Assembly: GCA_947369165.1 (NCBI GenBank)
Contig: CANBKJ010000029.1
Location: forward strand, 1-33,733
Source of the DNA: an uncultured Lachnoclostridium sp.
GTDB taxonomy: Bacteria > Bacillota > Clostridia > Lachnospirales > Lachnospiraceae
DNA: 33,733 nucleotides
Reading direction: 5' to 3'
Made by a program: the position numbers and the translations under genes
The notes under the pieces: generated by a model
Databases searched by the model: none
Told to the model about the DNA's origin: nothing
What the model saw: the letters and a program-made list of their open reading frames with translations, nothing else
In this document: piece after piece, positions 1-29,382 of the stretch
Layout: each line of letters starts with the position of its first letter
Position numbering within the stretch: the stretch's first letter is position 1

Positions 1-176
1 CTTATTTCTTCTGCCGTTGGATACCGATCGAATTTTTCGTTTATTACAGAAATGACAGACAAAACAGCTACCGAATCCCAGGTCTCCAATTCCTCAAGGA
101 CCGTATCCTCCTTAACATTCTCGTCATCCATTTCCAAAATATCTGCGATTGTTTCAATTTTTTCCTCTCTTGTCAT
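1..176 (-). CDS. Acyl carrier protein, partial (3' end outside window)
   Basis: The visible 58 codons encode a short acidic protein with the phosphopantetheine attachment motif DSV, so Ser35 would carry the 4'-phosphopantetheine arm. It resembles the other three acyl carrier proteins in the window, including the acidic ED(T/S)VLEE stretch before the motif. The ATG has a GGAGAGAG ribosome site just upstream. It follows the KAS III gene by about 33 bases and is the last visible gene of the leftward operon. The C-terminus lies beyond the left edge. It probably tethers the acyl intermediate handled by the adjacent KAS III and SDRs. Confidence 0.85.
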   Translation of the reverse strand, partial: MTREEKIETIADILEMDDENVKEDTVLEELETWDSVAVLSVISVINEKFDRYPTAEEI

Positions 177-209
177 TGCTCTCTCTCCTTTATTCTAATT
201 TCTATATTA

Positions 210-1220
210 TTACATCTGGAACATATCTCTATCGTCAAATACATAATCACTTGAAACCAATGGTAATATATTCATGGTATCAATTTCACAATATACAATG
301 CCCCAGGATAACCCGATACCAAAGCCGCACATAAAGATCTTTTTCTTACCAGTTTCTTTTTCATGATTCAAATGCAGACAGGCGGTAAGCGGTATGGAAG
401 CCGACGAGGTATTACCATAATCGTTACTTGACAATAATACCTTTTCACTTGGAAGCTCTGCACTCTGTGCCACTCCTTCCACAATCATTTTCTGAGCCTG
501 ATGAAAAATATAATAATCTACATCAGAAACACTCAAATGATGATCTGCATGAAACTGCTTTACACTGTCTACCACCTCATTTAACCCAAATAAGAGCACG
601 GCATTTCCATCCATAACACCTGGTTTATCAAAGGGTTTATAGATATAATTTGCACGAGAGCCATCACTATAATGCCGAAACAGCATAGATGTCTGATTTC
701 CATACTCCAACGCTGTAGCACTGGCAGCATCTCCTTCCAGCAGGGAAGATGTACTCAAATCGCCACTTGCTAATGCATTGCTTTCCCCAACAAGCAGAAG
801 ACCTCTTCCCTTTGTGGCGGAAAGAATAGCCGCAATGGTCTCAATCCCTCCTATATAACCAGAACACCCCAGATTAATATCATAAACCAAACAATCTTTT
901 CCAATGCCTAATCTTTGTTGAATGATAAATGCGGTGGATGGTCTCGATAACTCCGGCGATTGTGTAACAAAAATAAGTACATCGATCTCACTGCGATTCC
1001 ATTCAAGTAAATTTAGCAGTTTATCTGCCGCAATAGTTGCCAGATCGGAAGCCTTTTGTCCATCAATACATACGCGCCTGTTTTCAATACCTGTAAGCAT
1101 TACCTGCTTTTTAATTCTACGGCTCTCTATCTTTTCAATATAATCTAAATTACAAACTTTATTCTTAGGTACCGCGGAAACAATGCCCTTTATTTCTATA
1201 TTGCTATATTGACCCTTCAC
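210..1220 (-). CDS. 3-oxoacyl-ACP synthase III family protein (KAS III)
   Basis: A 336-residue FabH-like thiolase-fold condensing enzyme. The catalytic triad is visible: Cys119 in NLGCSGY, His240 in IFHQAQ and Asn270 in YGNTSSAS. The length is normal for the family. Such enzymes condense a primed acyl group with malonyl-ACP to give a beta-ketoacyl-ACP. The start is a GTG preceded by AGGAGAAAAGAT, since no ATG fits. It lies between an SDR and an acyl carrier protein in the leftward operon. No elongation KAS, dehydratase or enoyl reductase is nearby, so a single condensation followed by ketoreduction is the likely use. It is paralogous to the KAS III genes at 6521 and 10688. The substrate is unknown. 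Confidence 0.92.
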   Translation of the reverse strand: MKGQYSNIEIKGIVSAVPKNKVCNLDYIEKIESRRIKKQVMLTGIENRRVCIDGQKASDLATIAADKLLNLLEWNRSEIDVLIFVTQSPELSRPSTAFIIQQRLGIGKDCLVYDINLGCSGYIGGIETIAAILSATKGRGLLLVGESNALASGDLSTSSLLEGDAASATALEYGNQTSMLFRHYSDGSRANYIYKPFDKPGVMDGNAVLLFGLNEVVDSVKQFHADHHLSVSDVDYYIFHQAQKMIVEGVAQSAELPSEKVLLSSNDYGNTSSASIPLTACLHLNHEKETGKKKIFMCGFGIGLSWGIVYCEIDTMNILPLVSSDYVFDDRDMFQM

Positions 1221-1247
1221 ATCTTTTCTCCTTTTTAACTGGGATAC

Positions 1248-2003
1248 TTAATATACCCTGCCGGCACCAATCGTAATTAGTTCACCTGTGGTGTAATAGG
1301 ATTGGTCAGACAACAAAAACTCCACATAAGCTGCAATAATGTCACTTGGAATCAATCCTAACTGCTGTACATGATCTGACGCAGCGGAAAACCGCTTTCC
1401 GGTACTTGCTATATTGGTTAGCAAATTCTCTTTTTCCTTAGTCATCGGCGTACAGACAGCACCAGGCAAAATAGCATTTACCCGGATTTTTCTTCGTATA
1501 AACTCTTTTGCCATTGTCTTTACATACGAATTCAGAGCTGCTTTTGAGGCAGAATAACTTGACATTCCCACGTCTGGCATCAGACTTGCCGTTGACGATA
1601 TCGCTATGATGGAGGACGCTTCTTTAGAAACTCTCGTGCTATAAAACTTTCTCGCTGACTCCACAAAGGCAAAACAATTGACTGTCATCATCTGCACCAT
1701 ATGTTTTGTATTATTAACTTTTATCGGCCAGGTACCATCCATGCCGGCTGAGTACACCATGCCATCTAATTTTATTTGGTTTTCAGTGCATACGTCGAAA
1801 ATGGTTTCTATATGATCTAAGTCCGTTAAATCATAACAAACCGGAATAATCGTCGTTTTTCCGGCATATTGTTGTTCTAAGGCTTCTAATTTATCCTTGT
1901 TTCTTCCTACCAGAAGCAAATGATCAGAATCCGTCGCAAGCCTATGTACACACGTCTCTCCAATTCCAGATGTAGCGCCTATAATCAAATGTTTTTTCCC
2001 CAT
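1248..2003 (-). CDS. SDR-family oxidoreductase, probable beta-ketoacyl-ACP reductase
   Basis: A 251-residue short-chain dehydrogenase/reductase of FabG type. It shows the N-terminal cofactor glycine motif GATSGIG, an active-site serine region ISSTAS and the catalytic YSASK. It most likely reduces the beta-ketoacyl-ACP made by the neighbouring KAS III, with NAD(P)H as cofactor. The start chosen is the ATG at 2003, behind a GGAGGAG site. The longer reading frame beginning at 2042 overlaps the upstream acyl carrier protein and has no ribosome site. Only one base separates it from that gene's stop codon, suggesting translational coupling. Its ketoreductase role is inferred from context. Confidence 0.88.
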   Translation of the reverse strand: MGKKHLIIGATSGIGETCVHRLATDSDHLLLVGRNKDKLEALEQQYAGKTTIIPVCYDLTDLDHIETIFDVCTENQIKLDGMVYSAGMDGTWPIKVNNTKHMVQMMTVNCFAFVESARKFYSTRVSKEASSIIAISSTASLMPDVGMSSYSASKAALNSYVKTMAKEFIRRKIRVNAILPGAVCTPMTKEKENLLTNIASTGKRFSAASDHVQQLGLIPSDIIAAYVEFLLSDQSYYTTGELITIGAGRVY

Positions 2004-2004
2004 G

Positions 2005-2235
2005 TTACTCCTCCAGATCGGAAATGAACTGGCATATGTCACTCACAGTTTTAAAACTTTTAAGCATGTCTGTGGTCAGATTGTGCTCATATCTTTTTTT
2101 GATTTCCACCGTTAAAGCTAATGTGGCCAAGGAATCCCATTCATCTATTTCTTCTAAAACAGAATCCTCCGAAAGAACACCCTCGTCCAAATCCATTATC
2201 TCTTCTAAAAAATTCAACTTTTCCTGTAATGTCAT
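2005..2235 (-). CDS. Acyl carrier protein
   Basis: A 76-residue acidic protein with the motif EWDSL, in which Ser35 is the predicted phosphopantetheine site. Length and acidity match a free-standing acyl carrier protein. It sits between two SDR genes in the leftward operon and almost abuts the downstream SDR start. An AAAGGAG site precedes the ATG. It is closest in style to the acyl carrier protein at 6293-6508 on the other side of the recombinase: both have an E(D/E)IMD(L/I)(D/E)EG stretch followed by EWDSL. This suggests the two operons hold related, duplicated modules. Confidence 0.9.
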   Translation of the reverse strand: MTLQEKLNFLEEIMDLDEGVLSEDSVLEEIDEWDSLATLALTVEIKKRYEHNLTTDMLKSFKTVSDICQFISDLEE

Positions 2236-2257
2236 TATTTTTTTCTCCTTTAAATTA

Positions 2258-2977
2258 TTATAGATTACCTGCTGAAACAGGTATTACTGCTCCCGTAATA
2301 TATTTTGCCTTGGCAGATAAAAGAAATTCAGCTAAATATGAAACATATGCCGTTTCAATTAGTCCCAAAGGTTGTACATGACATAATTCTTCTTTCTTTA
2401 TAAATGGAGCACGATCAATCATTTCTGTGTCCACACATGCCGGAGCAATTGCATTCACCCGAATCCGTCGTTTTGTAACTTCCTTTGCAAGTACTTTTAC
2501 AGCAGCTTCTAACGCCGCCTTTGAAGAGGTATAAGTACTCATACCCGATGATATTCGATTTGTCGCATGGGATGAAATTGCCACGATACTTCCGCCATCC
2601 TCAGAATACTTTTTCTTAATAAAATATTTACTGAGTTCAACAAATGCCATATAATTTACCGTTAACGTCTCGCACATCAGTCCGATATCGTTATTTCGGA
2701 TTGGTATATCATGATTCACACCTGCGCAATATACCATACCATTAAGTTTTATGCCAGATTCTATACAAAAATCAAATATTGTTTGTATGTGTCCCAAATC
2801 ATTTAAATCATATGGAACAATATAAGATCTTCCAGAAATATTTGTTTGTATGCTTTTTAGCTTATCTGCATTTCTTGCCACCAGTACCACAGTCGCTCCT
2901 TGGGCTGATAAATACTCGGCGGTTTTGGCACCTATCCCTTGAGAGGCTCCCGTGACCAAAATATTTTTTTCTTTCAT
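2258..2977 (-). CDS. SDR-family oxidoreductase, probable beta-ketoacyl-ACP reductase
   Basis: A 239-residue short-chain dehydrogenase. It has the cofactor motif TGASQGIG, a CAGVN segment in place of NNAG, the serine region ISSHAT and the catalytic tetrad YTSSK. It is a close paralogue of the SDR at 8228-8965 in the rightward operon, sharing the LVTGAS start, the DIPIR(N/A)NDI segment and VPVSAG/IPVSGG ends. An AGGAGAGAAG site precedes the ATG. It follows the GNAT gene by 18 bases. It probably reduces a ketoacyl-ACP. Why the operon carries two SDRs is unclear; they may act on different chains or in series. Confidence 0.88.
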   Translation of the reverse strand: MKEKNILVTGASQGIGAKTAEYLSAQGATVVLVARNADKLKSIQTNISGRSYIVPYDLNDLGHIQTIFDFCIESGIKLNGMVYCAGVNHDIPIRNNDIGLMCETLTVNYMAFVELSKYFIKKKYSEDGGSIVAISSHATNRISSGMSTYTSSKAALEAAVKVLAKEVTKRRIRVNAIAPACVDTEMIDRAPFIKKEELCHVQPLGLIETAYVSYLAEFLLSAKAKYITGAVIPVSAGNL

Positions 2978-2995
2978 CTTCTCTCCTATTCCGGC

Positions 2996-3988
2996 TTAAC
3001 ATGGCCTATCCTGATCCCCATCTCCCAGAAATAACCGGAATCCCTCTATCCTGGGATCCATCAAACGTAAAGTCACATTTCTTTGTTCAAATGGATGAAA
3101 ATAATTAGGAATAATATTCTCACTGTCCATGTCACAGCGGATAAACCCTGCCTGGTCATATAGTTTTACTGGTATACCAAAAGAATACACATCCATATAT
3201 TCGTACTGTTTCTCTTTTATTAAAAGGTCAAGGGAACATGTTATTTTTCCCAAATCATGTAAGTCCCCATAAAAATCAATGATTTTTCCTACTTTTCTAT
3301 CTTCTACCCGCTCTTCCCTTGTTATTAAAATAGACTTCGAGTTTCCATCCTGGTTTACAATTTTCCATTTATCATATTGATAAACCGGATGATCAAAATA
3401 TCTTTTTTGTATATAAGAATAATCCTTACTCATAATACAATTCGCAAGTACTTCTTCAGAAATGATTTCTTTCATTTCCTCCACCGTATGGATAGATTCC
3501 AAATGGTATCCGGTATCCTCTACCCGCGGTATTATTTTGTCTTTTATCTTAGCAATCTTATACTCTGATATATCAGCCAGACGATAATAGTGATCCATCA
3601 CAGCAGGAGTCATTCCCAACATCTTATAGATACGATCTGCTTTGTTACTGAGCCCCGCTGAACAACTGTATCTGACTTGAAGCTGGTCAAACATATAATT
3701 TTCCAGTTCCATTCCAAGTACAGGATTCGTACTCTTAATCGTTTTCCAAATACTTCCCGAAATATCCGGATTGGGACGTTTATTATACTTTATAACACCC
3801 TGCATTCCATAGATCCTGCCGGCATCATCATCTACACCTAAAAAAACATTTACTTGATCATCATCTACAAATTGCCATTCAAAAAATTCTCTGTCTCTGG
3901 CAAGAATATGTCCTTTTTTCCAATGCTCATCAATAAACTGCATGATTTGGGGAATATCTTCGTATACGGCCTGCCGAATCGTTATCAT
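2996..3988 (-). CDS. GNAT-like N-acyltransferase, first gene of leftward operon
   Basis: A 330-residue protein whose N-terminus (IRQAVYEDIPQIM, then a hydrophobic strand pattern) resembles GNAT acetyltransferases. The remaining two thirds is a family-specific extension ending in GDGDQDRP. It is paralogous over its whole length to the gene at 5271-6296, which faces the opposite way across the recombinase. Placed before acyl carrier protein, KAS III and SDR genes, it may transfer the acyl chain from its carrier to an amino sugar or another surface acceptor. That role is inferred. The ATG follows GGAGAAG. It is the leftward gene nearest the invertible segment. Confidence 0.75.
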   Translation of the reverse strand: MITIRQAVYEDIPQIMQFIDEHWKKGHILARDREFFEWQFVDDDQVNVFLGVDDDAGRIYGMQGVIKYNKRPNPDISGSIWKTIKSTNPVLGMELENYMFDQLQVRYSCSAGLSNKADRIYKMLGMTPAVMDHYYRLADISEYKIAKIKDKIIPRVEDTGYHLESIHTVEEMKEIISEEVLANCIMSKDYSYIQKRYFDHPVYQYDKWKIVNQDGNSKSILITREERVEDRKVGKIIDFYGDLHDLGKITCSLDLLIKEKQYEYMDVYSFGIPVKLYDQAGFIRCDMDSENIIPNYFHPFEQRNVTLRLMDPRIEGFRLFLGDGDQDRPC

Positions 3989-4017
3989 AATTCTTCTCCA
4001 CTATTCTTCATTCTTAA

Positions 4018-4049
4018 TAAAAAAACTGCCCCAGATACTGGACACAGTT
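4018..4049 (-). terminator. Terminator-like hairpin upstream of the leftward GNAT gene
   Basis: Reading leftward, AACTGTGTCC and GGGGCAGTT can pair around a 7-base loop, with two wobble pairs and one bulge, followed by seven T. This is the layout of an intrinsic terminator. It lies between the recombination site and the first leftward gene, with only about 30 bases to the ATG and no obvious promoter in them. The same bases also resemble an insertion-sequence end, so the terminator reading is tentative. Confidence 0.45.
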
Positions 4050-4104
4050 ATGTTTTTTATATTCTGTGCCTCCATGCAACATTTATTCGCTAATCCATGC
4101 ATAA

Positions 4105-4137
4105 ATGTATCCTTAAGATGAAAACTTAAGGATACAT
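4105..4137. repeat. Left recombination site (33-bp inverted repeat, 13-7-13)
   Basis: A perfect 13-bp palindromic pair of arms, ATGTATCCTTAAG and CTTAAGGATACAT, flanks a 7-bp asymmetric core ATGAAAA. The 13-7-13 layout is typical of a core site for a tyrosine recombinase, with two monomers bound around a 7-bp overlap. The matching site at 5205-5237 has the core in the opposite sense. Confidence 0.85.
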
Positions 4138-4170
4138 CCTTTTCTTATATCGGACAGAACTTGTCTTTTC

Positions 4171-5151
4171 TTAACCTATCTCAATTAGATTTCCAACTTT
4201 TTCCACAAATTTCCTCTTCTTATCCATATCACTATGGACATAAGTGCGGAACGTAGTATTGATATCCGCGTGCCCCAAAAGCTCGCTGATCGTCTTATAG
4301 TCACATCCAGCTTCGACTAACCGGGTGGCAAAAGTATGCCGCAAACCATGAAAGGTCACATATTTTGTTCCATTCCTTTCCATGAGCCGGTTATAGTATT
4401 CCCGCAGCGTGCGGGGTTCAATAAATTTATCCTCACTTCCGGTCAATAAGTAGGCATCGGGTTCCGCCTGATGTTTTTTTAATATGGGAAGGTAATTTTC
4501 CGGCAAAGGAATATACCGGATGGAGTTAGAAGATTTTGGAGCCGTTACAATGACCTTGCTTTTCCCTAAACCATGTTCTTTGGTATATATACGTTGTAAC
4601 GTCTGTTTCACATGAACCAGTCCTCCAGAGAGGTCAATACAGCCCCATTGCAGGGCACAAACCTCACCAATCCGCATCCCTGTTGCCAGTGCCAGAGAAA
4701 TCCCTAAGCTCTTCAAAGATCTCTGTTTCTGCAGGCACTTCATTATCTCATATTCCTCCTGCAAAGTCAAGCAGTTTCCATTGGCTTCGGCTGTCAGGAC
4801 AGCGCTGGATTTTGGATACTGATACTGCCTTTTCCCCAGACAGATATAGCCTTTTTGTTCTGCCTTTTCTAAAATTCCCAGCCACAAAGCCAAAATGTCC
4901 TTTACTGACTTATGTGACAGAGTTCCAGAACCATTTATCTTTCTTTTTTGAGATAAGAAAAGAATAAAGTTTTGATTGTCATCATGACGGATATCTTTTA
5001 TTCTTCTCTTTCCATAATAAGGAAGTATATGATTTTCAATCGCCACAGAATAAGTTGCAAATGTGGATTCCTTGATATAACTTTTGTACTCTCTCTGCCA
5101 TTCCCGAATCCATGTCTCTACCGTTATGTCATTTTGTTTTTGTGCATTCAT
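4171..5151 (-). CDS. Tyrosine recombinase (site-specific integrase family), predicted DNA invertase
   Basis: A 326-residue phage-integrase-type recombinase. An N-terminal core-binding domain (about residues 8-100) is followed by the catalytic domain with all six expected residues: Arg160 (GMRIGE), Lys206 (APKSSN), His268 and Arg271 (HGLRH), His294 (LGHA) and the nucleophile Tyr304 (TYVH). The start at 5151 is preferred because GGAGG lies 8 bases upstream and the -10 element at 5176-5181 would put transcription start near 5168. The longer start at 5166 would then be leaderless. The gene is enclosed by inverted 13-7-13 sites, so its natural substrate is probably this segment. Classical integration cannot be excluded. 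Confidence 0.92.
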   Translation of the reverse strand: MNAQKQNDITVETWIREWQREYKSYIKESTFATYSVAIENHILPYYGKRRIKDIRHDDNQNFILFLSQKRKINGSGTLSHKSVKDILALWLGILEKAEQKGYICLGKRQYQYPKSSAVLTAEANGNCLTLQEEYEIMKCLQKQRSLKSLGISLALATGMRIGEVCALQWGCIDLSGGLVHVKQTLQRIYTKEHGLGKSKVIVTAPKSSNSIRYIPLPENYLPILKKHQAEPDAYLLTGSEDKFIEPRTLREYYNRLMERNGTKYVTFHGLRHTFATRLVEAGCDYKTISELLGHADINTTFRTYVHSDMDKKRKFVEKVGNLIEIG

Positions 5152-5175
5152 TACGTTTTCCTCCATTTTTTAATA

Positions 5176-5184
5176 ATTATAACA
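5176..5184 (-). promoter_or_regulatory. Extended -10 promoter for the recombinase, inside the invertible segment
   Basis: Reading leftward, TGTTATAAT is a perfect extended -10 element (TG, one base, TATAAT). No convincing -35 box stands 16-18 bases upstream, which extended -10 promoters tolerate. Read-through past the recombinase would reach the leftward operon now, and the rightward operon after inversion. No comparably good outward promoter facing right was found near 5185-5270. Confidence 0.65.
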
Positions 5185-5204
5185 CTTGCGCCGTTAAGTT
5201 AAGC

Positions 5205-5237
5205 AGATATCCTTAAGTTTTCATCTTAAGGATACAT
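5205..5237. repeat. Right recombination site (33-bp inverted repeat, 13-7-13)
   Basis: Arms AGATATCCTTAAG and CTTAAGGATACAT flank the core TTTTCAT. It equals the reverse complement of the left site except for two bases in the outer part of the segment-proximal arm. The core is the exact reverse complement of the left core ATGAAAA, so pairing of overlaps favours inversion over excision. It lies 33 bases before the rightward GNAT start. Confidence 0.85.
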
Positions 5238-5270
5238 TTCCTTGAACTCAGCATACGCAGGAGGAATGTG

Positions 5271-6296
5271 ATGATCAGAATCAGACAGGCGGTTTATGAA
5301 GATATTCCCAACATAATGAGATTTATCGATGAACACTGGAAAAAAGGACATATTATGGGAAATGACCGTACTATGTTTGAATTTCAGCATGTAAGAGATG
5401 GAGAGGTCTTTTATATTATAGCAGAAGATGATGTGGATGGCAGGATCTATGGTTCGATGGGGTACATTCCGATGATGGAACAGGAATGGCCCTGCATGTC
5501 TACCGTTATGATTCAATCCCTGAACAATCCTGAGAACCGGATGCTCGGTGAAGAGATGGCACGGTATTTTGAAAAAAATATGCAGTGCTATAATCTTTTT
5601 TCTGTGGGCATTGAAAAACGATATGCCAGGGCGATTGCCGCACTAGGCGGAAATATAGAAAAACTGAATCACTATTATCGGCTGGGACAAAAACAGGAAT
5701 TTAAAATTGCCAGTATCAACCATTATCATATTTTACCTGTAAAAAAAGATGGTGTTTCGCTTGTCCCTTTAAAAACAGCCGCTGCCTTTGAAGATCAGAT
5801 TGACAAAGAACAGCTCTATCATAATTATCCGAGGAAAAGCCTGCGTTATATCACCCATCGATATTATTGCCATCCATATTATACATATAAAATATGGGGT
5901 CTGCAGAGTAAGGAAGGAATAACAAGCGCTATTGCCACAAGAGAAGAAGAAGTAAACGGGTCAAAGGTTCTTCGTATCGTAGATTTTTTTGGCAGAGATG
6001 CTGACCTTGCGATGGCAGGACATGAGATTGACAAGCTCCTTGCCGAAGGTAACTATGAATACATCGATTTCTATTGCTATGGGATTGAAGATTCTATCCT
6101 GCGGGAGGCCGGATTTTCCTTGAGAGACGAGACCGATGAAAATGTAATTCCAAATTACTTTGACCCATTTTTACAAAAAAATATTGACATCTATTTCTAC
6201 ACCTGGTATTTACCCAACATACATGTATATCGTGGATTTGGCGATCAAGACCGTCCAAACCATATTATAAATCATAAAAAAGGAGAACTAAAATGA
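5271..6296 (+). CDS. GNAT-like N-acyltransferase, first gene of rightward operon
   Basis: A 341-residue paralogue of the leftward GNAT at 2996-3988. Both begin IRQAVYEDIP, continue with FIDEHWKKGHI and share NVIPNYF/NIIPNYF and GDQDRP near the end. The ATG at 5271 is chosen because AGGAGG stands six bases before it; the GTG at 5268 is too close. The gene starts 33 bases after the right recombination site, so a promoter flipped into that position would drive it directly. It ends in an ATGA overlap with the acyl carrier protein gene. Predicted role: acyl transfer from a carrier protein to a surface-sugar amine. The acceptor is not known. Confidence 0.75.
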   Translation: MIRIRQAVYEDIPNIMRFIDEHWKKGHIMGNDRTMFEFQHVRDGEVFYIIAEDDVDGRIYGSMGYIPMMEQEWPCMSTVMIQSLNNPENRMLGEEMARYFEKNMQCYNLFSVGIEKRYARAIAALGGNIEKLNHYYRLGQKQEFKIASINHYHILPVKKDGVSLVPLKTAAAFEDQIDKEQLYHNYPRKSLRYITHRYYCHPYYTYKIWGLQSKEGITSAIATREEEVNGSKVLRIVDFFGRDADLAMAGHEIDKLLAEGNYEYIDFYCYGIEDSILREAGFSLRDETDENVIPNYFDPFLQKNIDIYFYTWYLPNIHVYRGFGDQDRPNHIINHKKGELK

Positions 6297-6508
6297 AAGA
6301 ATTATTAGAAATGCTTGAAGATATTATGGATATCGAAGAAGGAACCCTGGAGACTACTACCGTTCTGACAGATTTGGAAGAATGGGATTCCCTAAGCAAA
6401 TTATCTCTTATGGCAGAAGCAAAGAAAAATTATCAAAAGAAACTATCTGCGGATGAAATAGCTGGATTTGTTACCGTACAGGATATTTTTGATTATTTAC
6501 AAAAATAA
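6293..6508 (+). CDS. Acyl carrier protein
   Basis: A 71-residue acidic protein with EWDSL, Ser33 being the predicted phosphopantetheine site. Its ATG overlaps the GNAT stop codon (ATGA), a sign of translational coupling and perhaps of physical partnership between the acyltransferase and its carrier. AAAGGAG lies upstream. It is slightly shorter than usual for a free-standing acyl carrier protein but keeps the expected four-helix length. It is most like the leftward acyl carrier protein at 2005-2235. Confidence 0.9.
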   Translation: MKELLEMLEDIMDIEEGTLETTTVLTDLEEWDSLSKLSLMAEAKKNYQKKLSADEIAGFVTVQDIFDYLQK

Positions 6509-6520
6509 GAGGTGTCCAAC

Positions 6521-8197
6521 ATGATTGGAAAATTTGACAACATAAAAATACAGGGAATGAGTGCTGCCGTTCCGGAATATGTAGAACATAATATGAATTT
6601 TGCTAATGTTATCGGGAAAAGAAGAACAAAAAAGCAGATCAAGATTACTGGCGTGGAACAACGACATATCTCCGGCAGACATCAAAGAACTTCTGATCTG
6701 TGCTATGCCGCTGCTCTTCCATTATTGGAAAAACTTCAATGGAAACGTAAAGACATAAAAGTACTGCTTTTCATTACTCAGGGTCCCAACTACCTGCATC
6801 CTTCCACTGCATTTTTCCTGCACAAAAGACTGGGGCTGGAAAAGGACTGTCTGGTTTATGATATGAACCTGGGATGCTCCAGCTTTAATGTAGGAGTACA
6901 TACAGCCGCAGCACTGCTTCAAAGTTGCAGCCTGCACGATAAGGCATTACTCTTGATAGGAGATACGGCTGGACGTATAAGAAACCCGGAAACATCGTTA
7001 AAACCAGATGACATCGCACACGATATGCTTTTTGGATCTGCTGGTGCGGCTATTGCCATTGAAAAGGTAGAAAATCATCCCTTGTATTTTATGAATATGT
7101 CCGATGGTAACGGATACGACGCAATCATTGGCTACAAGGGGCGTCCCTCCCAGATGAATGGGGCTGCTGTTTTTTCTTTTGCCATTAACGATGTTTCGGA
7201 TGGAGTCATCAACTTCCGAAAAAAATATAATATTTCAGAGGATCTTATTGATTATTATATATTCCATCAGGCTCAGGATCTAATTTTAGATAATATTATA
7301 GATTCCTGTAATATTCCTGCCGAGAAAGAACTTCGTTCCCTACGCCATTATGGTAACACTTCTGGGACTTCCGTTCCCGTCACGGTATGTGCAAACAGGG
7401 AACAGATCCAGAAAAAGAAAACTTCCAAACTGCTGCTATGCGGATTTGGTGTTGGTTTGTCCTGGGGATGTATCTATACTGAGATCGATACTGCAAATAT
7501 ACTGCCGGTAATAGAGACAAATGAACATTACGATGATGATAAAAAACCGGCACGGGGTCTGCACGACAAAAATATTCTTGTACTGTGCGCCGATACAGAA
7601 ATAGGAGAATGGCTGAGCCGGTTTGATAATGATAAATCTGCCATGGTAATCCTCGCCGGAAAAAATGCAGATAAATTGAACCAGATTCAAAGTGATCTAT
7701 TTATGGATTCAGATTCCTTTGTAATGGAAACACTCACAAAAGAAACGATCCATAGAGCCTTAGAACACTGTCTGGAAAAAGAGCTGATGCTAGATGGTAT
7801 TGTAATACCAGCTGAAATCTCTGCAGAATTGCTATCGTATCTCAGTCATGAACTTGTGCATGGTTATGGAAAAGAGCTGGCCTCTATCATTGTTCTGGAG
7901 TCAGTTTCCTCTAAAAGTGAATTGGAGATATTGAAACAAAGGCTGGAATTAAAGCTTAAAGGAACCGGTTTCCGGGAAAGCGAACGATGTGTGCGTGTAA
8001 ATGGCATTATTTATGCAGAGGATGAGATCGATATTGTACAGATCATAAAAGACGGACAGCAATGGGTCAGCCTTTTTCTTGAAAGAGAATGTCCTGAAAA
8101 AATGAAGAAGCCAATTTACATATGCCAACTGCAGCAATTCCTGCTTACCGACAAGTCCAGATACATAACAGAAACCGCCATAGCCTTTAACAATTAA
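6521..8197 (+). CDS. KAS III fused to a degenerate SDR-like domain
   Basis: A 558-residue two-part protein. Residues 1-335 form a KAS III domain with an intact triad: Cys119 (NLGCSSF), His249 (IFHQAQ) and Asn279 (YGNTSGTS). Residues from about 349 follow the course of an SDR: NILVLCADTEIG aligns with the cofactor motif, then LAGKNADKLNQIQ, LDGIVIP, RVNGI and FLLTDKSRYIT. The TGxxxGIG glycines and the catalytic YxxxK are missing, so this half should not be an active reductase. It may be a scaffold, partner or relic. The ATG at 6521 fits the paralogues and has AAGAGG 8 bases upstream; a GTG at 6512 is less likely. The join is one continuous frame. Confidence 0.85.
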   Translation: MIGKFDNIKIQGMSAAVPEYVEHNMNFANVIGKRRTKKQIKITGVEQRHISGRHQRTSDLCYAAALPLLEKLQWKRKDIKVLLFITQGPNYLHPSTAFFLHKRLGLEKDCLVYDMNLGCSSFNVGVHTAAALLQSCSLHDKALLLIGDTAGRIRNPETSLKPDDIAHDMLFGSAGAAIAIEKVENHPLYFMNMSDGNGYDAIIGYKGRPSQMNGAAVFSFAINDVSDGVINFRKKYNISEDLIDYYIFHQAQDLILDNIIDSCNIPAEKELRSLRHYGNTSGTSVPVTVCANREQIQKKKTSKLLLCGFGVGLSWGCIYTEIDTANILPVIETNEHYDDDKKPARGLHDKNILVLCADTEIGEWLSRFDNDKSAMVILAGKNADKLNQIQSDLFMDSDSFVMETLTKETIHRALEHCLEKELMLDGIVIPAEISAELLSYLSHELVHGYGKELASIIVLESVSSKSELEILKQRLELKLKGTGFRESERCVRVNGIIYAEDEIDIVQIIKDGQQWVSLFLERECPEKMKKPIYICQLQQFLLTDKSRYITETAIAFNN

Positions 8198-8227
8198 CAC
8201 AGACAGCACAGAGGCTGTACTGGGAAA

Positions 8228-8965
8228 ATGGAGAATAATGTGGAAAAATCAGTATTAGTGACAGGAGCTTCTTCTGGAATCGGAGCTGCTGTCAGCAAAT
8301 ATTTATCTGAACAAGGTTATTCTGTTGTTTTGGTTGCCAGAAGTAAAGACAAATTAAATCAGATTGCAAACAAACTTAACGGGACCAAATTCATAATATC
8401 TTATGATCTTACGGATTTAGAGCATATTGAAGACATTTTTATTGAATGCAGGGATAAAGGAATAAAATTAGACGGTCTGGTTCATTGTGCCGGGATCAAT
8501 AATGACATTCCCATTCGCGCTAACGATATAGAAATCATGAAGGAAGTAACAACCATAAATTACTACTCATTTGTAGAATTAGGAAAATATTTTAATAGAA
8601 AAAAGTATTCCAATGAAGGGGCATCCGTCATAGCACTTTCCTCTTCAGCGGCGTTTTCATGCAGCAAGGGGATGTGTACTTATGCGGCATCAAAAGCAGC
8701 AATAAACGCAACTGTTAAAGTAATGGGAAAAGAATTCTTAAAACGGCGGCAACGTGTCAATGCCATCTGCCCGACCTTTGTAGATACTCCCATGGCTGCC
8801 CGCATGGATGCCTCCCTTGGCGATCTCGAAAAAAAGGTTTCCGGACAACCTCTTGGACTGATTGACCCCGTACAGCTGGCATATCTTGCTGAATTTTTGC
8901 TCTCTGACAAATCTTCATATATTACCGGGGCATGTATACCCGTATCAGGAGGCGCTATTCTATAA
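8228..8965 (+). CDS. SDR-family oxidoreductase, probable beta-ketoacyl-ACP reductase
   Basis: A 245-residue short-chain dehydrogenase with TGASSGIG, CAGIN, a serine region LSSSAA and catalytic YAASK. It can supply the ketoreduction that the fused SDR-like domain upstream has lost. It is a close paralogue of the leftward SDR at 2258-2977. Two starts are possible. The ATG at 8228 has only a weak upstream site, whereas a GTG at 8240 has GGAG six bases before it and would give MEKSVLVTG, like the paralogue's start. The shorter form may be right. It sits about 40 bases before the next acyl carrier protein. Confidence 0.88.
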   Translation: MENNVEKSVLVTGASSGIGAAVSKYLSEQGYSVVLVARSKDKLNQIANKLNGTKFIISYDLTDLEHIEDIFIECRDKGIKLDGLVHCAGINNDIPIRANDIEIMKEVTTINYYSFVELGKYFNRKKYSNEGASVIALSSSAAFSCSKGMCTYAASKAAINATVKVMGKEFLKRRQRVNAICPTFVDTPMAARMDASLGDLEKKVSGQPLGLIDPVQLAYLAEFLLSDKSSYITGACIPVSGGAIL

Positions 8966-9006
8966 CCTGTAGTTATAGGGCGTAAAAACAGAAGGAGGAT
9001 GCCACA

Positions 9007-9243
9007 ATGACAGTTATAAATATCATTGAACAGATTTTTAAGGATGCACTGGATATCCAGGAATCAGAAATCATATCTGATGATATATGTATGGAGGATT
9101 GTCCGGCATGGGACTCTCTGGCACAGATGACCATTATCATTCAGTTAAAAAAGGAATTTGATATCAACTTTCTGTATGATGAAATCTTATCCATGAACAC
9201 ATTGGGAAAAATCAAAGAAATAACAGAAAATAAACTGAAATAA
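9007..9243 (+). CDS. Acyl carrier protein
   Basis: A 78-residue protein with the motif AWDSL, Ser37 being the predicted phosphopantetheine site. It is preceded by AAGGAGG. It differs from the other three in the window: it lacks the EDxVLEE stretch, has CMEDCPAW before the motif, and is followed directly by the acyl-activating ligase. It may therefore be the carrier loaded by that ligase, while the others serve the condensation and reduction steps. This division of labour is inferred from gene order only. Confidence 0.88.
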   Translation: MTVINIIEQIFKDALDIQESEIISDDICMEDCPAWDSLAQMTIIIQLKKEFDINFLYDEILSMNTLGKIKEITENKLK

Positions 9244-9273
9244 TAGCTCTAACTTTAAAAAGGAGAGATAATT

Positions 9274-10674
9274 TTGGCTTTTTTTGATAATAATGAATTA
9301 TTTAAAAATAATACCGCTTTGATCGATGATCTCGACCGGCACTATACCTATGGACAAATGTATGATTTGGGCAGCCAGATATTAAATGGTACAAAAGCAC
9401 GGCGGGTATTGATGCTCTTGTGTGATAATTCCATGGAATCCATCAGCACCTATCTGGCGGCTCTGCAAAAAGGCATCATCCCCCTGATGGTCAACTCTTC
9501 CATGCCGGAGGATCTGCTTTTTTCCATCTATGATAAATATAAGCCGGCCTATGTTTTTATGAATAAAGAAATTCAGAAATTCTTTCCAACATGCCATTGT
9601 ATTCGGGAAGTCTCCGGCTATACGCTCTTCCAGGCTGACTCTGTAGAAGATTATCCTGTCAATGACGATCTGGCTCTTTTGCTGACGACTTCTGGCAGTA
9701 CCGGCAGCCCAAAGCTGGTTCGCCAGTCTTACAAAAATATACAGAGTAATGCCAGCTCCATCGCCAGATATTTAGATATTCAGGAAAGCGACACAGCGGT
9801 CACTACTCTTCCACTCAATTATACATACGGCTTATCCATCATAAACAGCCACATGGAAAGAGGCGCCTCCATCGCAGTTACAAATAAAACTTTTTTTGAT
9901 AAAAGTTTCTGGGAATTTTGCAACCGGTACAAAGTCACTAACTTTGGAGGTGTTCCCTACTCTTATGACATCCTTCAGACCATCGGTTTTGAACAGATAC
10001 AGATCCCCTCCCTTCGGTATATCACCCAGGCCGGCGGCAAACTGCATGAAGAAAAAGTAAAAAATATGGTTTCGGTCTGTGAGGCGAAGGGAATCAAATT
10101 TATTATCATGTATGGTCAGACAGAAGCAACTGCCCGGATGTCTTACCTACCATGGGAAAAAACCAGAGAAAAGAGCGCAAGTATCGGAATTGCAATTCCG
10201 GATGGAAGGTTTGTATTGGAAGATGATCATGGAAATGAGATAACAACGGCAGATCGGATCGGCGAATTGGTTTATTATGGCCCCAATGTAACACTAGGTT
10301 ATGCAGAGAGCTATATGGATCTTTGTAAGGGAGATGAATTTAACGGTGTCCTTCATACTGGGGATCTCGCCAAATGCGATACCGAGGGCTTCTATTATAT
10401 CGTCGGCAGAAATAAGCGTTTTATTAAATTGTTTGGAAACCGGGTGAGTCTGGACGAAGCAGAACAATTACTGGCTAAAAATCATTACTTCTGTGTCTGC
10501 GGAGGAAAGGATGACTGCCTTACAATCTATACCATTGAACAGGGAAAAGACGAAGAGATCTTAGATTATATCAGCAGAGTAATGGGATTTCACAAAAATG
10601 CTTTTGAAGTAAAATACATTAAAGAAATCCCCCGGAACCAGTCTGGAAAGGTGGACTACTCTTCTCTTATATAA
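9274..10674 (+). CDS. AMP-forming acyl ligase (ANL superfamily)
   Basis: A 466-residue adenylate-forming enzyme. It shows the phosphate-binding motif TTSGSTGSPK (138-147), YGQTEA (280-285), the HTGD motif (361-364), YIVGRNKR and a C-terminal SGK lysine (Lys459). It should activate a carboxylic acid with ATP and load it on a carrier thiol, most likely the acyl carrier protein just upstream. The start is TTG at 9274, set by AGGAGAG just upstream. The N-terminal region is short for the superfamily but all core motifs are present. It offers a free-acid route to the primer used by the KAS III enzymes. The substrate is unknown. Confidence 0.88.
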   Translation: MAFFDNNELFKNNTALIDDLDRHYTYGQMYDLGSQILNGTKARRVLMLLCDNSMESISTYLAALQKGIIPLMVNSSMPEDLLFSIYDKYKPAYVFMNKEIQKFFPTCHCIREVSGYTLFQADSVEDYPVNDDLALLLTTSGSTGSPKLVRQSYKNIQSNASSIARYLDIQESDTAVTTLPLNYTYGLSIINSHMERGASIAVTNKTFFDKSFWEFCNRYKVTNFGGVPYSYDILQTIGFEQIQIPSLRYITQAGGKLHEEKVKNMVSVCEAKGIKFIIMYGQTEATARMSYLPWEKTREKSASIGIAIPDGRFVLEDDHGNEITTADRIGELVYYGPNVTLGYAESYMDLCKGDEFNGVLHTGDLAKCDTEGFYYIVGRNKRFIKLFGNRVSLDEAEQLLAKNHYFCVCGGKDDCLTIYTIEQGKDEEILDYISRVMGFHKNAFEVKYIKEIPRNQSGKVDYSSLI

Positions 10675-10687
10675 ATTGGAGGTTATT

Positions 10688-11683
10688 ATGTTTGGTGAAT
10701 ATTCCAATATTGCAGTCCGCGGAATCGTATCCGTAGTCCCTCCGACAAAGGTCGAAAATTTAGACTGCGTAAGTAATGAGCTGAGTCTCAAAAAGATAAC
10801 AAAACAGATCAAACTCACGGGGATCGAAAGAAGACGAATTCTTACCGGTGAACAGACGGCCTCGGATCTCGCTGCAAAAGCAGCGGAAAATCTATTGAAT
10901 GAACTAAAGTGGGAAAGAGATACAATCCGTATCCTTGTCTATGTAACCCAGGCGGCAGATATGGAAATCCCCTCCACTGCTTTATTGATCCAGAAACGAC
11001 TGGGAATCGGCACCCACTGCCTGGCTTTTGATGTGAATTTAGGATGCTCCGGCTACACCGTCGGTCTGCAGATCGTGGCAGGACTGCTTCATCAGGCGGG
11101 GGGACGCGCATTATTACTTGCCGCAGACGGAAGAAGCGACAGTCAGAGGGAAAATGCTGCTGATTATCTTCTATTTGGAAATGCAGGCACAGCCACGGCC
11201 CTTGAAACCTCTGAAAATCATATGCTTCAATACCGGCATCAATCCGATGGGAGCAGATGGAGAACGATATACCGCAAAAATGGCTGCGCTACGATTATGG
11301 ACGGCAACGCGGTTTTTGCCTTTGCCATCAATGATGTGGCAGACAGCGTAAGACAGACTTTAGAGCATTTTTCCCTGACTACTGATGATATCGACTACTT
11401 CGTATTTCATCAAGGACAGAAAATGATCATTGATAATCTGGCAGAGATCTGTGGCATCCCTTTGGATAAAATGCTATATTCTTTAAAAGATTACGGAAAT
11501 ACATCCTGTGCCTCGATTCCATTATCCATATGCAATGAGGTACGGAAACTAAAACAACAGCAGGAAGTTCGTATGTACCTGTGTGGTTTTGGCGTCGGTC
11601 TTTCCTGGGGAAGCATCCTTGTAACAATAAGTACCGATACGATTTTTCCTATCGAGGTAAGTGATACTCACTACATCGACTGA
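10688..11683 (+). CDS. 3-oxoacyl-ACP synthase III family protein (KAS III)
   Basis: A 331-residue condensing enzyme with Cys120 (NLGCSGY), His241 (VFHQGQ) and Asn271 (YGNTSCAS). It resembles the leftward KAS III more than the fused one: both share GIVS(A/V)VP, IKLTGIE/VMLTGIE and GFGIGLSWG/GFGVGLSWG. The ATG at 10688 is chosen because GGAGG stands 5 bases before it; a TTG at 10676 gives a longer but poorer start. It follows the ligase by about 13 bases, so a ligase-primed acyl group may be its substrate. With the fusion protein it makes two KAS III enzymes in the rightward operon. Confidence 0.92.
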   Translation: MFGEYSNIAVRGIVSVVPPTKVENLDCVSNELSLKKITKQIKLTGIERRRILTGEQTASDLAAKAAENLLNELKWERDTIRILVYVTQAADMEIPSTALLIQKRLGIGTHCLAFDVNLGCSGYTVGLQIVAGLLHQAGGRALLLAADGRSDSQRENAADYLLFGNAGTATALETSENHMLQYRHQSDGSRWRTIYRKNGCATIMDGNAVFAFAINDVADSVRQTLEHFSLTTDDIDYFVFHQGQKMIIDNLAEICGIPLDKMLYSLKDYGNTSCASIPLSICNEVRKLKQQQEVRMYLCGFGVGLSWGSILVTISTDTIFPIEVSDTHYID

Positions 11684-11704
11684 TAATATGCTGGAGGAAA
11701 TTCT

Positions 11705-13135
11705 ATGAATTATGATCAATTATGCAGCAAGATCTGTGAGATAGAGGATAAGTATGATCTGTTTCAACTCACTTTTAACCATGTTGCATACTGGAAGTAT
11801 GCAAGATACTATGTATACCGGGTCTTACTCCATAAATTCTTTGGAATCCATACACCCTGGCTGGAAAATAAGAAGGAAAATTACTTTATAAAACATCCCC
11901 ATTTTTCAAAGAAATTTACAGATCCTGTCTTTCAAAATGAAAGCAGCTCCATTTCCAACGATGTTCTAATGTTTACTTTTAACCGGAGATCCAGGCAGGG
12001 AGAAACCTATGTCTCTTCTGTCACTGACGAAATCTCCTTGCATCTGGAATTATCAAACTGCGTTGTAGAAGTCCCATACAACGGCGGGTACTATCAGCCC
12101 GTCCCCATCAAAAACATCAAATATTTTGATCCATGGGAAGATATCGGTATTGACAAAGACCAGAAAACGTATACTCCGATCAGCAGAGGATTGCTGCGAA
12201 GACAGCTTTTGCAGATCTTTGAAAAAGAATTTGAAATATCCTTTTCTCCGGAAGAAAAAAATATCCTAAACACAAATATTAATTACTTTATTATGTACCG
12301 TCAGGATCTCATGGAAAATTATCATAAAGTGATCCAAAAGGTAAATCCAAAGCTGGTGCTTCTGACAACCTCCTATATTGGCGAATGGGTTGTATTGATC
12401 GAACTTTTAAAAGAGTTGAAGATCCCCAGTATAGAAATATTACACGGATATGTAGATGATAATTACCTGCCCTATAATTATAAAAAACTGGGAATGAACG
12501 ACGCCCAGCCAGACTACATTTTTGTCTACAGCAAGCTGCAGAAAGATCAGGTGAATTGGGGCATCCCAAAAGACCGCATCCGGGTAACAGGCTATCCGGA
12601 AGGGGAAAAAAGATCCCTTGAACTACTGGGCAACCCGCTGAAAAGAAGTAAAAAAAGGATTACCTTCATCTCAAATATGGCACAGGTAATGGAAAAATAT
12701 CTGAACGCCCTGGCGGAAAACATCAATCTGGAAGAATTTGAGATTCTTTTTAAACTTCATCCCAATGAGTATGACTGCTGGAAAGAGATCTATAACAACC
12801 TGTCCCGGCATGTCCAGGTGATCGATCACAACGAAAATGACATCCACTATTATCTTGCAAATTCTGATATTGTGGTCGGCATAAATTCTACCGCACTGTT
12901 TGAAGCGACATTTTATCCTGTGGATATCTATATTCTGCAGGAAGATAGTTACCAGAATATGAAACTTCTGTTTCAGTCAGGCGCTGCCACCCTGGTAAGT
13001 GACAGCCCTGCGCTGTTCTCTGGCATTTATGAAAACAGTGCAGGAAAAACTTCAAACAATGACATCATTTTCAGGAAAAATTCTATCGAAAATGTAAACT
13101 CAGAAATTAAAAGTATTTTAGGTGAGAGGGACTGA
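11705..13135 (+). CDS. GT-B-like capsule/CDP-glycerol-type glycan transferase
   Basis: A 476-residue protein without a signal peptide or clear membrane segments. The C-terminal half resembles the GT-B fold of CDP-glycerol and capsule-polymer transferases: RIRVTGYPEG (292-301), FKLHPNEY (349-356), then DIVVGINSTALFEA (388-401). The N-terminal half has no feature I recognise. It closes the rightward operon and ends in a terminator. As the only glycan-type enzyme in the locus it ties the acyl-chain genes to a surface sugar or polyol-phosphate polymer. Its donor and acceptor cannot be read from sequence. A GGAGG site precedes the ATG. Confidence 0.7.
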   Translation: MNYDQLCSKICEIEDKYDLFQLTFNHVAYWKYARYYVYRVLLHKFFGIHTPWLENKKENYFIKHPHFSKKFTDPVFQNESSSISNDVLMFTFNRRSRQGETYVSSVTDEISLHLELSNCVVEVPYNGGYYQPVPIKNIKYFDPWEDIGIDKDQKTYTPISRGLLRRQLLQIFEKEFEISFSPEEKNILNTNINYFIMYRQDLMENYHKVIQKVNPKLVLLTTSYIGEWVVLIELLKELKIPSIEILHGYVDDNYLPYNYKKLGMNDAQPDYIFVYSKLQKDQVNWGIPKDRIRVTGYPEGEKRSLELLGNPLKRSKKRITFISNMAQVMEKYLNALAENINLEEFEILFKLHPNEYDCWKEIYNNLSRHVQVIDHNENDIHYYLANSDIVVGINSTALFEATFYPVDIYILQEDSYQNMKLLFQSGAATLVSDSPALFSGIYENSAGKTSNNDIIFRKNSIENVNSEIKSILGERD

Positions 13136-25546: not shown

Positions 25547-26155
25547 TCATGCGATGCAAAAATCAAAATATGTATCCGGGTATGGCTCTTCCGCCAAGAC
25601 GTAATGCCACCATTCATAACGATAGGCTTCAAATCCGCTGCTCTCCATGATATTACACAGGCACGCACGGTTTTTTGATTCCTCTTCACTCAGACCGCTG
25701 GCGGCATGATGCGACCGCACATCCATGAAGTCGAAATCTCCTCCCATTGGCACAAGCATGCCCGTATCCAAACGGAAAATCGTGAGGTCAACCGCACTTC
25801 CACGGCTGTGGCTGGACTGGGAAGCCACATACCCTTTCGCGACCATCTCGTTCCTCTTTATATTTGGATAGTAGCGCTTTTTCGTCAGATTGTTTTCCGG
25901 CAGGGAAGCCCAATTCAGAAAGCAGTCCACTGCACACTGGGGACGGTAGCCGTCCCATAAGAGCAAACCATACCCCAGTCTCTCTGCCGCCTTCTGAGTC
26001 TCACGCAGAGCAATTCCCAGTTCTTTCGTTCCCACAATACGGTTTACCATGTATCCGTCTACCGGTTTCCCGGTGAAATTATCCCATGTGGCATATTTGG
26101 CATCCCACCGGATTCCCGGCAGCATTTCATCTAAAAAGACAAAGTTCTTTTCCAT
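25547..26155 (-). CDS. vanX: D-Ala-D-Ala dipeptidase, VanX (D type)
   Basis: A 202-residue cytosolic zinc dipeptidase, the exact length of VanX. It removes free D-Ala-D-Ala so that only D-Ala-D-Lac enters cell-wall precursors. The zinc ligands fall at the positions known for VanX: His116 and Asp123 in SHSRGSAVD, and His184 in EWWH, with catalytic Glu181. It starts 5 bases after the ligase stop, behind TAGGAGG. It is the last gene of the van operon. All active-site residues are present, so it should be functional. Confidence 0.95.
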   Translation of the reverse strand: MEKNFVFLDEMLPGIRWDAKYATWDNFTGKPVDGYMVNRIVGTKELGIALRETQKAAERLGYGLLLWDGYRPQCAVDCFLNWASLPENNLTKKRYYPNIKRNEMVAKGYVASQSSHSRGSAVDLTIFRLDTGMLVPMGGDFDFMDVRSHHAASGLSEEESKNRACLCNIMESSGFEAYRYEWWHYVLAEEPYPDTYFDFCIA

Positions 26156-26160
26156 GGCAG

Positions 26161-27192
26161 CTACCTCCTAAGTGAAAGTCCAATCAAGCGGTCCAGTATT
26201 TCAGAAAGCGTAAATCCTGCCGCTGTCATCATGCGTGGATAACGGCTGTAGGAAGTAAATCCAGGCATGGTATTCACTTCATTCAGGACAATGTTTCCGT
26301 CCTCCCGTAAAAACAAATCAATGCGGGCCAGACCTCTGCAGCCAAGTATCCGGTAGATCTTCTTCGCCGTTTTCTGAATCTGCTCCCTTACTTCATCCGG
26401 CAGGGCAGCCGGAACTCTGATAAACGCATTTTCAGAACCCTTTTCTGGCTGCGCTTCCTGATGGATCTTAAAAAACCCGTGTTTCAGTTCAATCTGATCG
26501 ACCTCACCGGCGACGAGATCGTTTTCGTTTCCCAGTATGGCACAGCCTACCTCACTCCCGGAAACGGCCTCCTCAATCAATATTTTGCTGTCATATTTTC
26601 CTGCCTCTCTGACTGCCGCCTGCAGATCCTCTGCCCGGCATACCTTATTCACGCCAAACGAAGAACCGGAACGGGCGGGCTTTACAAAGACCGGGTATGT
26701 AAGCGTCTCTGCTTCCAGACGGTTCCCCTTCTGAAGGACCCAAAACCCAGGCACCTCGATCCCCGCATTTTTCACAACCATATAAGCGAGCGACTTATCC
26801 ATGCAGACCACGGAGCTTTGAATGTCACATCCCACATAAGGAATACCGGACATCTCTAGCAGACCCTGTATGGTTCCATCCTCGCCAAATTTTCCATGAA
26901 TCATCGGAAGCACCACGTCTACAGGCTGGCTCTCATATCCACCGTCCTTTTGTATCAGCAGGCCATGGATCCTTCTGTCCGGAGAAAGCACAACCGGGGA
27001 TCCCGCATACCTCTCCCAATCCCGGCAGGGCTTTTCGCATAGTTTGCATGTGCCGGATTTTGTGATACCAATATAAAACGGCTGGTATTTTTCTGTGTTT
27101 ATATTTGCTGCAACCTCTATCGCAGATTTCACTGAAACATCATGTTCCTCTGAGCAGCCTCCAAACAGGACTGCAATTTTAAGCTTATTCAT
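26161..27192 (-). CDS. vanD: D-alanine-D-lactate ligase, VanD type
   Basis: A 343-residue ligase of the ATP-grasp D-Ala-D-Ala ligase superfamily, cytoplasmic. It joins D-Ala to D-lactate, giving precursors that vancomycin binds poorly. Signatures of the D-Lac ligases are FGGCSEEHDVSVKSA, SGIPYVGCDIQSS, PARSGSSFGVNK, the omega-loop GFFKIHQE with PEKGSEN, and NEVNTMPGFTSYSRYP. The D-type call rests on gene order and on the CEKPC/IQKDGGYESQPVD style, not on an alignment. The start at 27192 overlaps the vanH stop by 8 bases. A longer frame from 27210 is unlikely. Confidence 0.93.
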   Translation of the reverse strand: MNKLKIAVLFGGCSEEHDVSVKSAIEVAANINTEKYQPFYIGITKSGTCKLCEKPCRDWERYAGSPVVLSPDRRIHGLLIQKDGGYESQPVDVVLPMIHGKFGEDGTIQGLLEMSGIPYVGCDIQSSVVCMDKSLAYMVVKNAGIEVPGFWVLQKGNRLEAETLTYPVFVKPARSGSSFGVNKVCRAEDLQAAVREAGKYDSKILIEEAVSGSEVGCAILGNENDLVAGEVDQIELKHGFFKIHQEAQPEKGSENAFIRVPAALPDEVREQIQKTAKKIYRILGCRGLARIDLFLREDGNIVLNEVNTMPGFTSYSRYPRMMTAAGFTLSEILDRLIGLSLRR

Positions 27193-28156: not shown

Positions 28157-28175
28157 TCGTTTCCTCCTTAAAATC

Positions 28176-29243: not shown

Positions 29244-29268
29244 GTTTCTCTTAGCTCCTTTCTGAAAG

Positions 29269-29315
29269 CAAAAAATCGCTCCTTCTGATAAAAAGCATAT
29301 CAGAATGGAGCGATT
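29269..29315 (-). terminator. Strong intrinsic terminator between vanS and vanY
   Basis: AATCGCTCC plus TTCTGATA pair with their complements in a 17-bp stem with one bulged base and a 7-base loop, followed by six T on the minus strand. It would end the vanRS transcript. It also lies downstream of the predicted VanR boxes, so it sits in the leader of any vanYHDX transcript made from there. Confidence 0.85.
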
Positions 29316-29360
29316 AATGTTTTCGCGTTCTTTTATGGATAACGCACGGTTTATCCCGGA

Positions 29361-29382
29361 ATTTCTTACGATTTTCCTACGG
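29361..29382 (-). promoter_or_regulatory. Tandem VanR-box-like sites
   Basis: Read leftward, CCGTAGGAAAA is followed directly by TCGTAAGAAAT. Both resemble the phospho-VanR binding pattern known from the vanA promoters (TCGTANGAAA-like, from memory). They overlap the last codons of vanS and precede the vanY leader. A possible -10 (TATCCA or CATAAA) lies downstream but is weak. Confidence 0.55.

Follow-up and report, generated by a model that had tools for sequence, protein, structure and literature searches.

The window analysed here, a stretch of 33,733 nucleotides from an uncultured Lachnoclostridium sp., contains a cassette of 1.1 kb that is best explained as a self-contained two-way selector operated by a tyrosine recombinase, and we put the probability of this explanation as a whole at about three in four. 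The enclosed recombinase (REC) would exchange strands in the 7-bp cores of two inverted sites, as comparison of related genomes suggests, and the flip would carry its own gene along with the cassette. A promoter of the sigma-28 (FliA/SigD) type at the 3' end of REC would then fire through the adjacent site into the operon that it faces, and the operon at the 5' end of REC would meanwhile be silent. The paralogous GNAT-like, ACP, KASIII, SDR and ligase-type enzymes encoded in the operons are predicted to make and attach a short acyl group, and the flip would most likely choose between two versions of the glycan on flagellin or another surface structure. In many flanks, a leader with a terminator and an antiterminator appears to be placed between promoter and operon, where two GGA hairpins prompt the speculation that CsrA gates read-through. 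The features are collected in Table 1. The genome of the window is designated G000, and the other G-numbers likewise refer to genomes of the genus (39 in all).

Table 1. Features of the cassette, the leader and the two adjacent operons (window coordinates).
Feature	Position	Strand	Basis or remark
Left operon KASIII (FabH-like)	210..1220	-	profile search
Left operon second SDR	1248..2042	-	homology
Left operon ACP-like stretch	2023..2229	-	tblastn with right ACP
Left operon SDR	2258..2977	-	homology to SDR at 8228-8965
Left operon gene 1, GNAT-like acyltransferase	2996..3988	-	
Intrinsic terminator between switch and left operon	4018..4049	-	terminator scan and folding
Proposed antiterminator	4041..4070	-	GGCACAG (4064-4070) pairs with CTGTGTC (4041-4047)
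Leader hairpin H2, candidate CsrA site 2	4067..4078	-	TGC[ATGGAG]GCA, ANGGAN hexaloop
Leader hairpin H1, candidate CsrA site 1	4089..4103	-	GGAT in loop; weak stem here, -0.9 kcal/mol
Left recombination site, 13-7-13	4105..4137	.	core ATGAAAA; G000/G017 inversion breakpoint
Sigma-28-like promoter at REC 3' end	4146..4174	-	TTAAG-N16-CCGATATA; points out through left site
Tyrosine recombinase (REC), 331 aa	4171..5166	-	PF00589 and PF14659
Extended -10 of REC promoter	5176..5184	-	TGTTATAAT; sequence
Right recombination site	5205..5237	.	core TTTTCAT; arms palindromic at 11/13
Right operon gene 1, GNAT-like	5268..6296	+	about 39% identical to left counterpart
Right operon acyl carrier protein	6293..6508	+	PF00550
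Right operon KASIII fused to SDR-like part	6512..8197	+	KASIII by profile; rest aligns to SDRs
Right operon SDR	8228..8965	+	profile search
Right operon AMP-forming acyl ligase	9274..10674	+	PF00501
Right operon second KASIII	10676..11683	+	profile search
Right operon last gene, possible glycosyltransferase	11705..13135	+	no Pfam family; NF046086 far below cut-off

A first-pass annotation of this DNA had described two inverted 33-bp sites around a recombinase gene, with cores that are exact reverse complements of each other, and both points agree with the sequence. The 13-bp palindromic arms that it gave to both sites are found at 13 of 13 positions in the left site; the right site departs from the palindrome at two positions, in the arms AGATATCCTTAAG...CTTAAGGATACAT. 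With at most three mismatches allowed, the 33-bp pattern has no match in the 2.8-Mb genome other than these two sites (backward control, 0). The 21-bp inner pattern, with at most two mismatches, has two matches in the window, where shuffles average 0.13 and 0 of 100 gave two. Both sites were flagged by a scan as plus-strand terminators; conservation and core matching favour recombination sites. Inverted CTTAAG-N7-CTTAAG sites enclose the recombinase gene in all seven complete loci of the genus, and four kinds of core were found in them: ATGAAAA (one locus), ATGGAAA (two), ATAGAAA (one) and ATAAAAA (three). The cores are unlike between species and matched inside the pair of every genome (7/7), which is expected if exchange needs identity of the two cores.

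The cores are about 1.1 kb apart in the four closest copies, and 3.7, 3.0 and 2.2 kb apart in G028, G005 and G006, where further genes separate REC from the upstream site. This cargo (L037 10165-12541, L038 11452-13176 and L039 8206-8910) comprises a Phd/YefM-PIN toxin-antitoxin-like pair, an AAA-ATPase/PD-(D/E)XK protein, a further protein similar to the latter by eye, and a protein with a metallo-beta-lactamase fold. PADLOC returned no match for REC or for the four cargo proteins tested.

REC matches PF00589 with an E value of 1.5e-31, and is assigned to the tyrosine recombinase class by its catalytic domain together with the residues R, K, H, R, H and Y. The six catalytic residues claimed for it earlier are present as R165, K204, H273, R276, H299 and Y309 and are invariant in 7/7 orthologues, with K204 as the candidate catalytic lysine among three, K202 and K211 being likewise invariant in all seven. 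Orthologues with 70-89% identity were found in six other genomes of the genus, and thus 7 of the 39 genomes carry REC. Among solved structures, REC is closest in sequence to chains that carry the name Int protein (6emy, E 1.6e-13). This integrase type, together with cargo that varies between species, would suit a small mobile element with its integrase between inverted ends, integrating and excising instead of inverting. Such an element is extremely improbable in view of the sites, which are inverted and not direct, and of the setting, as six of the seven cassettes lie between divergent acyl-modification operons (the seventh, in G024, starts at a contig end). Copies at varied loci were not found, and none of the 39 genomes has a lone site without REC, a relic or a contig end. 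Every REC match in phages (2076 records) and in the best 5000 plasmid records was below 60% identity, with at most 37% among the matches listed, and viral contigs gave one remote match, at 24% identity.

In the recombinase tree, the present REC family forms one clade with 100/100 support, and more distant enclosed recombinases are scattered. The distant set comprised 24 loci (L010-L032 without the contig-end loci L017 and L031, plus L046-L048); in five of them (L015, L016, L020, L022 and L028) the gene lies between two inverted sites that are perfect palindromes. These five come from the same genus, family or order, and three of them have TTCGCAGA-type sites. Inverted pairs that are palindromic by eye were seen in L012, L014, L021 and L027, and inverted repeats that are not palindromic by eye in L011, L018 and L019.

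Comparative evidence argues that the cassette very probably inverts, with the recombinase flipping the DNA that holds its own gene. The inversion switch with an internal recombinase that had been proposed for this DNA is backed by the orientations in G000 and G017, the cores matched in all seven loci, the contig breaks exactly at the sites in G038, and the finding that every site is accompanied by a recombinase, its relic or a contig end. When related genomes were compared for both orientations, as the first-pass annotation had advised, G000 and G017 proved to be opposite relative to one shared flank. Positions 1-4134 of the window are colinear with G017 through the left site at 92.9% identity, and the cassette at 4108-5234 matches G017 in reverse at 86.2%, with breakpoints within the sites. 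Synteny resumes at 13267, in a gene that we take to be ptsI. The right operon between the cassette and this position is different DNA in the two genomes, so that the shared flank adjacent to the cassette is the left one only. In these two close species, the position occupied by window 5268-13135 in one is taken by different DNA in the other (G017 C10, about 77.3-89.6 kb); the switch, the left operon and the gene beyond are all syntenic, as if one arm had been replaced.

The cassette of G001 has the same orientation as that of the window. G024 contains both site-proximal leaders of G017 with their positions swapped (93.8% and 96.3% at the junctions). This swap is given little weight because the body of the G024 contig follows G017, a 17-bp repeat seems to mark a misjoin in it, and a third site has an N next to it. 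That third site (L148, near C8 25945) adjoins the left operon, with the single N just before it, and may be the product of a misjoin.

The site pattern was found in 9 of the 39 genomes (controls, 0), seven with REC, G025 with a relic and G038 with contig ends. In G038 the inner end of the site is exactly where one contig stops and another starts; the exact repeat shared by these contig ends measures only 22 bp, and the bases that come next on the inner side are not the same at the two cassette ends of relatives. These breaks would fit a mixed population, since the coexistence of both orientations would make a short-read assembler stop at this point. The G038 bin is without an orthologous recombinase, and the cassette of this genome is therefore out of view. 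In G025 (L157 8616-9065) a locked relic was found, consisting of one site and a recombinase in pieces, with the sigma-28-like promoter retained and facing an SDR gene.

G025 shows that decay occurs, and one could suppose that elsewhere, too, sites and recombinase persist after flipping has been lost. Seven intact recombinases with invariant catalytic residues, cores that vary between species yet match within each locus, and opposite orientations in close relatives make an inactive relic very unlikely.

The extended -10 of REC does lie with its gene inside the flipped segment, as had been stated. It had also been named as the promoter that inversion reorients; the likely effector is instead a separate, outward-pointing sigma-28-like promoter near the opposite end of the cassette. 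Its -35-like TTAAG overlaps the REC stop codon, and its -35 is TAAG, not TAAA. The promoter is found in 7/7 loci with 10 of the 12 positions of the sigma-28 consensus, as given in the available text of PMC3720852, and shuffles reached 10 in 5 of 420 cases. A related sigma-28-like pattern has 34 matches in seven genomes against six in backward controls; some of them precede flagellin genes, and FliK lies behind one further match. No recognisable flagellar gene was seen at 16 of 30 loci with the related pattern. The strict pattern TAAA-N14-16-CCGATAT gave eight matches in G000 against four in controls, an enrichment that is not clear. Of 30 flagellin-domain loci, only five reached a score of 10 or more in the 400 bp upstream (shuffles, 31 of 600), in a scoring whose spacing limit misses two G028 genes found with the related pattern. 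FliA is over the cut-off in 38 of the 39 genomes.

If the promoter of REC itself drove the faced operon by read-through, no sigma-28 factor would be needed. The extended -10 of REC is kept in G000, G017, G001 and G024, and the scan lists no minus-strand terminator from the REC stop codon to the left site; no promoter scan supports a -35 for REC. The 3' element was, however, found conserved, and read-through from REC was demoted for this reason to an unlikely alternative: CCGATATA is kept in 7/7 loci and even in the G025 relic with its broken recombinase, related elements precede flagellar genes in the same genomes, and in G028, G005 and G006 other genes intervene between the upstream site and REC. 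An outward sigma-28 promoter at the 3' end of REC is predicted with good confidence from sequence match and conservation, and the flip probably selects between the two operons. Two promoter-like matches of chance quality inside the REC gene point right, and the silence of the operon on the 5' side is therefore not proved.

What the operons act on was considered from their gene content and neighbours. Gene 1 of the right operon starts 30 bp from the right site and belongs to no Pfam family; the structure model of the GNAT-like protein has a mean pLDDT of 50, with residues 1-154 under 50, so that this first half is left unassigned, and on this weak model its GNAT fold is putative. The switch contig of G005 carries two flagellin-domain genes, CsrA, FliD, LicD, PEP mutase and NeuB; in G028 NeuB stands between the switch and flagellins about 15 kb away; and in G017 the left-operon side runs on into PseB (over the cut-off) and a NeuB-family gene. 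Linkage to flagellin and glycan genes was seen in G005 and G028, and to glycan genes in G017. These flagellin and nonulosonic-acid genes on the contigs of relatives, and the similar genes of enterobacterial flagellin islands, are the grounds on which the operons are read, as reasonably likely, to modify a flagellin glycan with alternative acyl groups. A real switch whose operons act on a surface polysaccharide or lipid instead of flagellin has a smaller though appreciable chance, since acyl-modification enzymes are generic and the proteins scanned on the window's own contig include no flagellar gene; the sigma-28-like promoter, the genes on the relatives' switch contigs and the CsrA-type leader hairpins speak against it.

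Three further observations concern these genomes. In G005, a GNAT-like gene of the same kind (L096, C11 72431) stands apart from any switch and has a sigma-28-like promoter of its own. Very long flagellin-domain open frames of 1645-1708 aa were found at L067, L068, L070, L076 and L081. Window 25547-31199 holds a VanD-type glycopeptide-resistance-like cluster, in which the models for VanX, VanD ligase, VanH-D, VanY-D, VanS and VanR-D are all over their cut-offs.

Between switch and operon, the two GGA hairpins H1 and H2, 23-29 nt apart, were found in 12 of the 17 flanks examined, the second in the form TGC[AYGGAG]GCA; the right flanks of G000, G001 and G017 are without a leader. Of the 12, 11 were tested for the hairpin pair and all passed, against 7 of 3300 mononucleotide shuffles, which do not preserve dinucleotides, the related leaders not being independent of one another. 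A terminator match is also present in nine of the 12, eight of which were folded. An antiterminator whose 5' arm overlaps H2 can form in all eight (-7.6 to -11.3 kcal/mol), and the terminator is the favoured structure in 8/8 MFE folds, so that antitermination would need a factor. The exact pattern of H2 plus the first terminator arm has eight matches in the 39 genomes, all beside switch sites (controls, 0), and the leader is for this reason regarded as belonging to the switch. Rfam gave four matches in 3000-6500, all far below the gathering score, which were taken as chance.

CsrA is a regulator of flagellin mRNA, and homologues of CsrA and FliW were found in G000. G017, G024 and G005 show a comparable hairpin in their flagellin leaders, and the hexaloop ANGGAN is the RsmE/CsrA form in the available text of PMC7652899. 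That CsrA acts on the leader is a speculative proposal, and a CsrA-gated attenuator is put forward tentatively. The leader could alternatively be governed by translation of a short open reading frame that begins within H2 and extends across the terminator. This frame is open in five of the nine terminator-bearing leaders (G000, G017, G001, G005 and G006 downstream), but it ends prematurely in G038 and in the upstream leader of G006, the two G028 leaders have no ATG, the peptide is poorly kept past the first residues, and no ribosome-binding site is seen by eye before the ATG; such control is rather unlikely. With CsrA as the gating factor, the antigen selector might even be tied to a flagellum checkpoint, in which inversion sets which glycan is made and flagellin export sets whether it is made. 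CsrA, either bound by FliW or released once flagellin captures FliW, would set the terminator by competing with the antiterminator in a dedicated leader RNA. This extended version is somewhat doubtful.

If the proposed selector is real, a complete antigen selector consisting of recombinase, sites and outward promoter is packed into about 1.1 kb, and offers a choice between two operons instead of switching one operon on and off. Variation of flagellin or surface glycans in Roseburia-like clostridia would be linked with the flagellar sigma factor as well as with DNA inversion, with a bearing on immune recognition of commensal flagellins and on flagella-using phages. The orthologues, with cores that vary between species and match internally, would form a natural series for the co-evolution of tyrosine recombinases and their sites, and the REC family could find use as a compact genetic switch with two outputs.

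Among known systems, the Salmonella Hin switch also reorients an outward promoter and chooses a flagellar antigen. Hin is a serine recombinase whose switch controls a single operon in an on/off manner, the second antigen being coupled to it by a repressor. REC, in contrast, matches PF00589 and does not class as a serine recombinase, the promoter here appears to face either of two operons directly, and enzymes instead of flagellins would be selected. The recombinase lies inside the invertible segment in both cases (Hin as described in the available part of PMC5903667). The cassette is best read as an analogue of Hin and not as its relative. The P. aeruginosa PAK island is a possible parallel. 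Enterobacterial flagellin glycosylation islands have ACP, FabG and CoA ligase genes of fatty-acid type, and the available part of PMC4875605 describes no invertible promoter for them, unlike here.

The flagellar switch of Clostridioides difficile under RecV resembles the present case in its tyrosine recombinase, inverted sites, flagellar genes and clostridial host (available parts of PMC5386303, PMC7446863 and PMC5903667). It differs in that C. difficile invertible sites span 154-230 bp and are mostly intergenic, and in that RecV also inverts the cwpV switch, with no choice between operons described in the available part of PMC5903667. The same text notes that recombinases are occasionally found inside the invertible segment, as in a fimbrial inverton of Providencia stuartii, which has a recombinase ORF inside and surface genes near; compared by its description there, this inverton is distinct in its 844 bp, its 14-bp imperfect repeats and its fimbrial locus (PMC5903667). 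Tyrosine recombinases are likewise tied to invertons in the clostridial inverton group 139 and tyrosine invertase group 35, of which 32/33 are in Clostridia; by description, in the available part of the paper, these recombinases are "nearby", whereas REC is inside (PMC11892184).

The compact form with the recombinase inside, which the first-pass annotation had singled out as unusual, is thus present here and is not unique, being shared with Hin, with P. stuartii and with 5 of the 24 distant loci; the cases in PMC5903667 and those distant loci mean that the layout is not new. Among the titles and abstract openings listed, none was recognised as describing this locus or a sigma-28 promoter that is inverted to choose between two operons. 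The class of switch is known, and so is the layout with an internal recombinase; a sigma-28 promoter that chooses between operons is apparently new.
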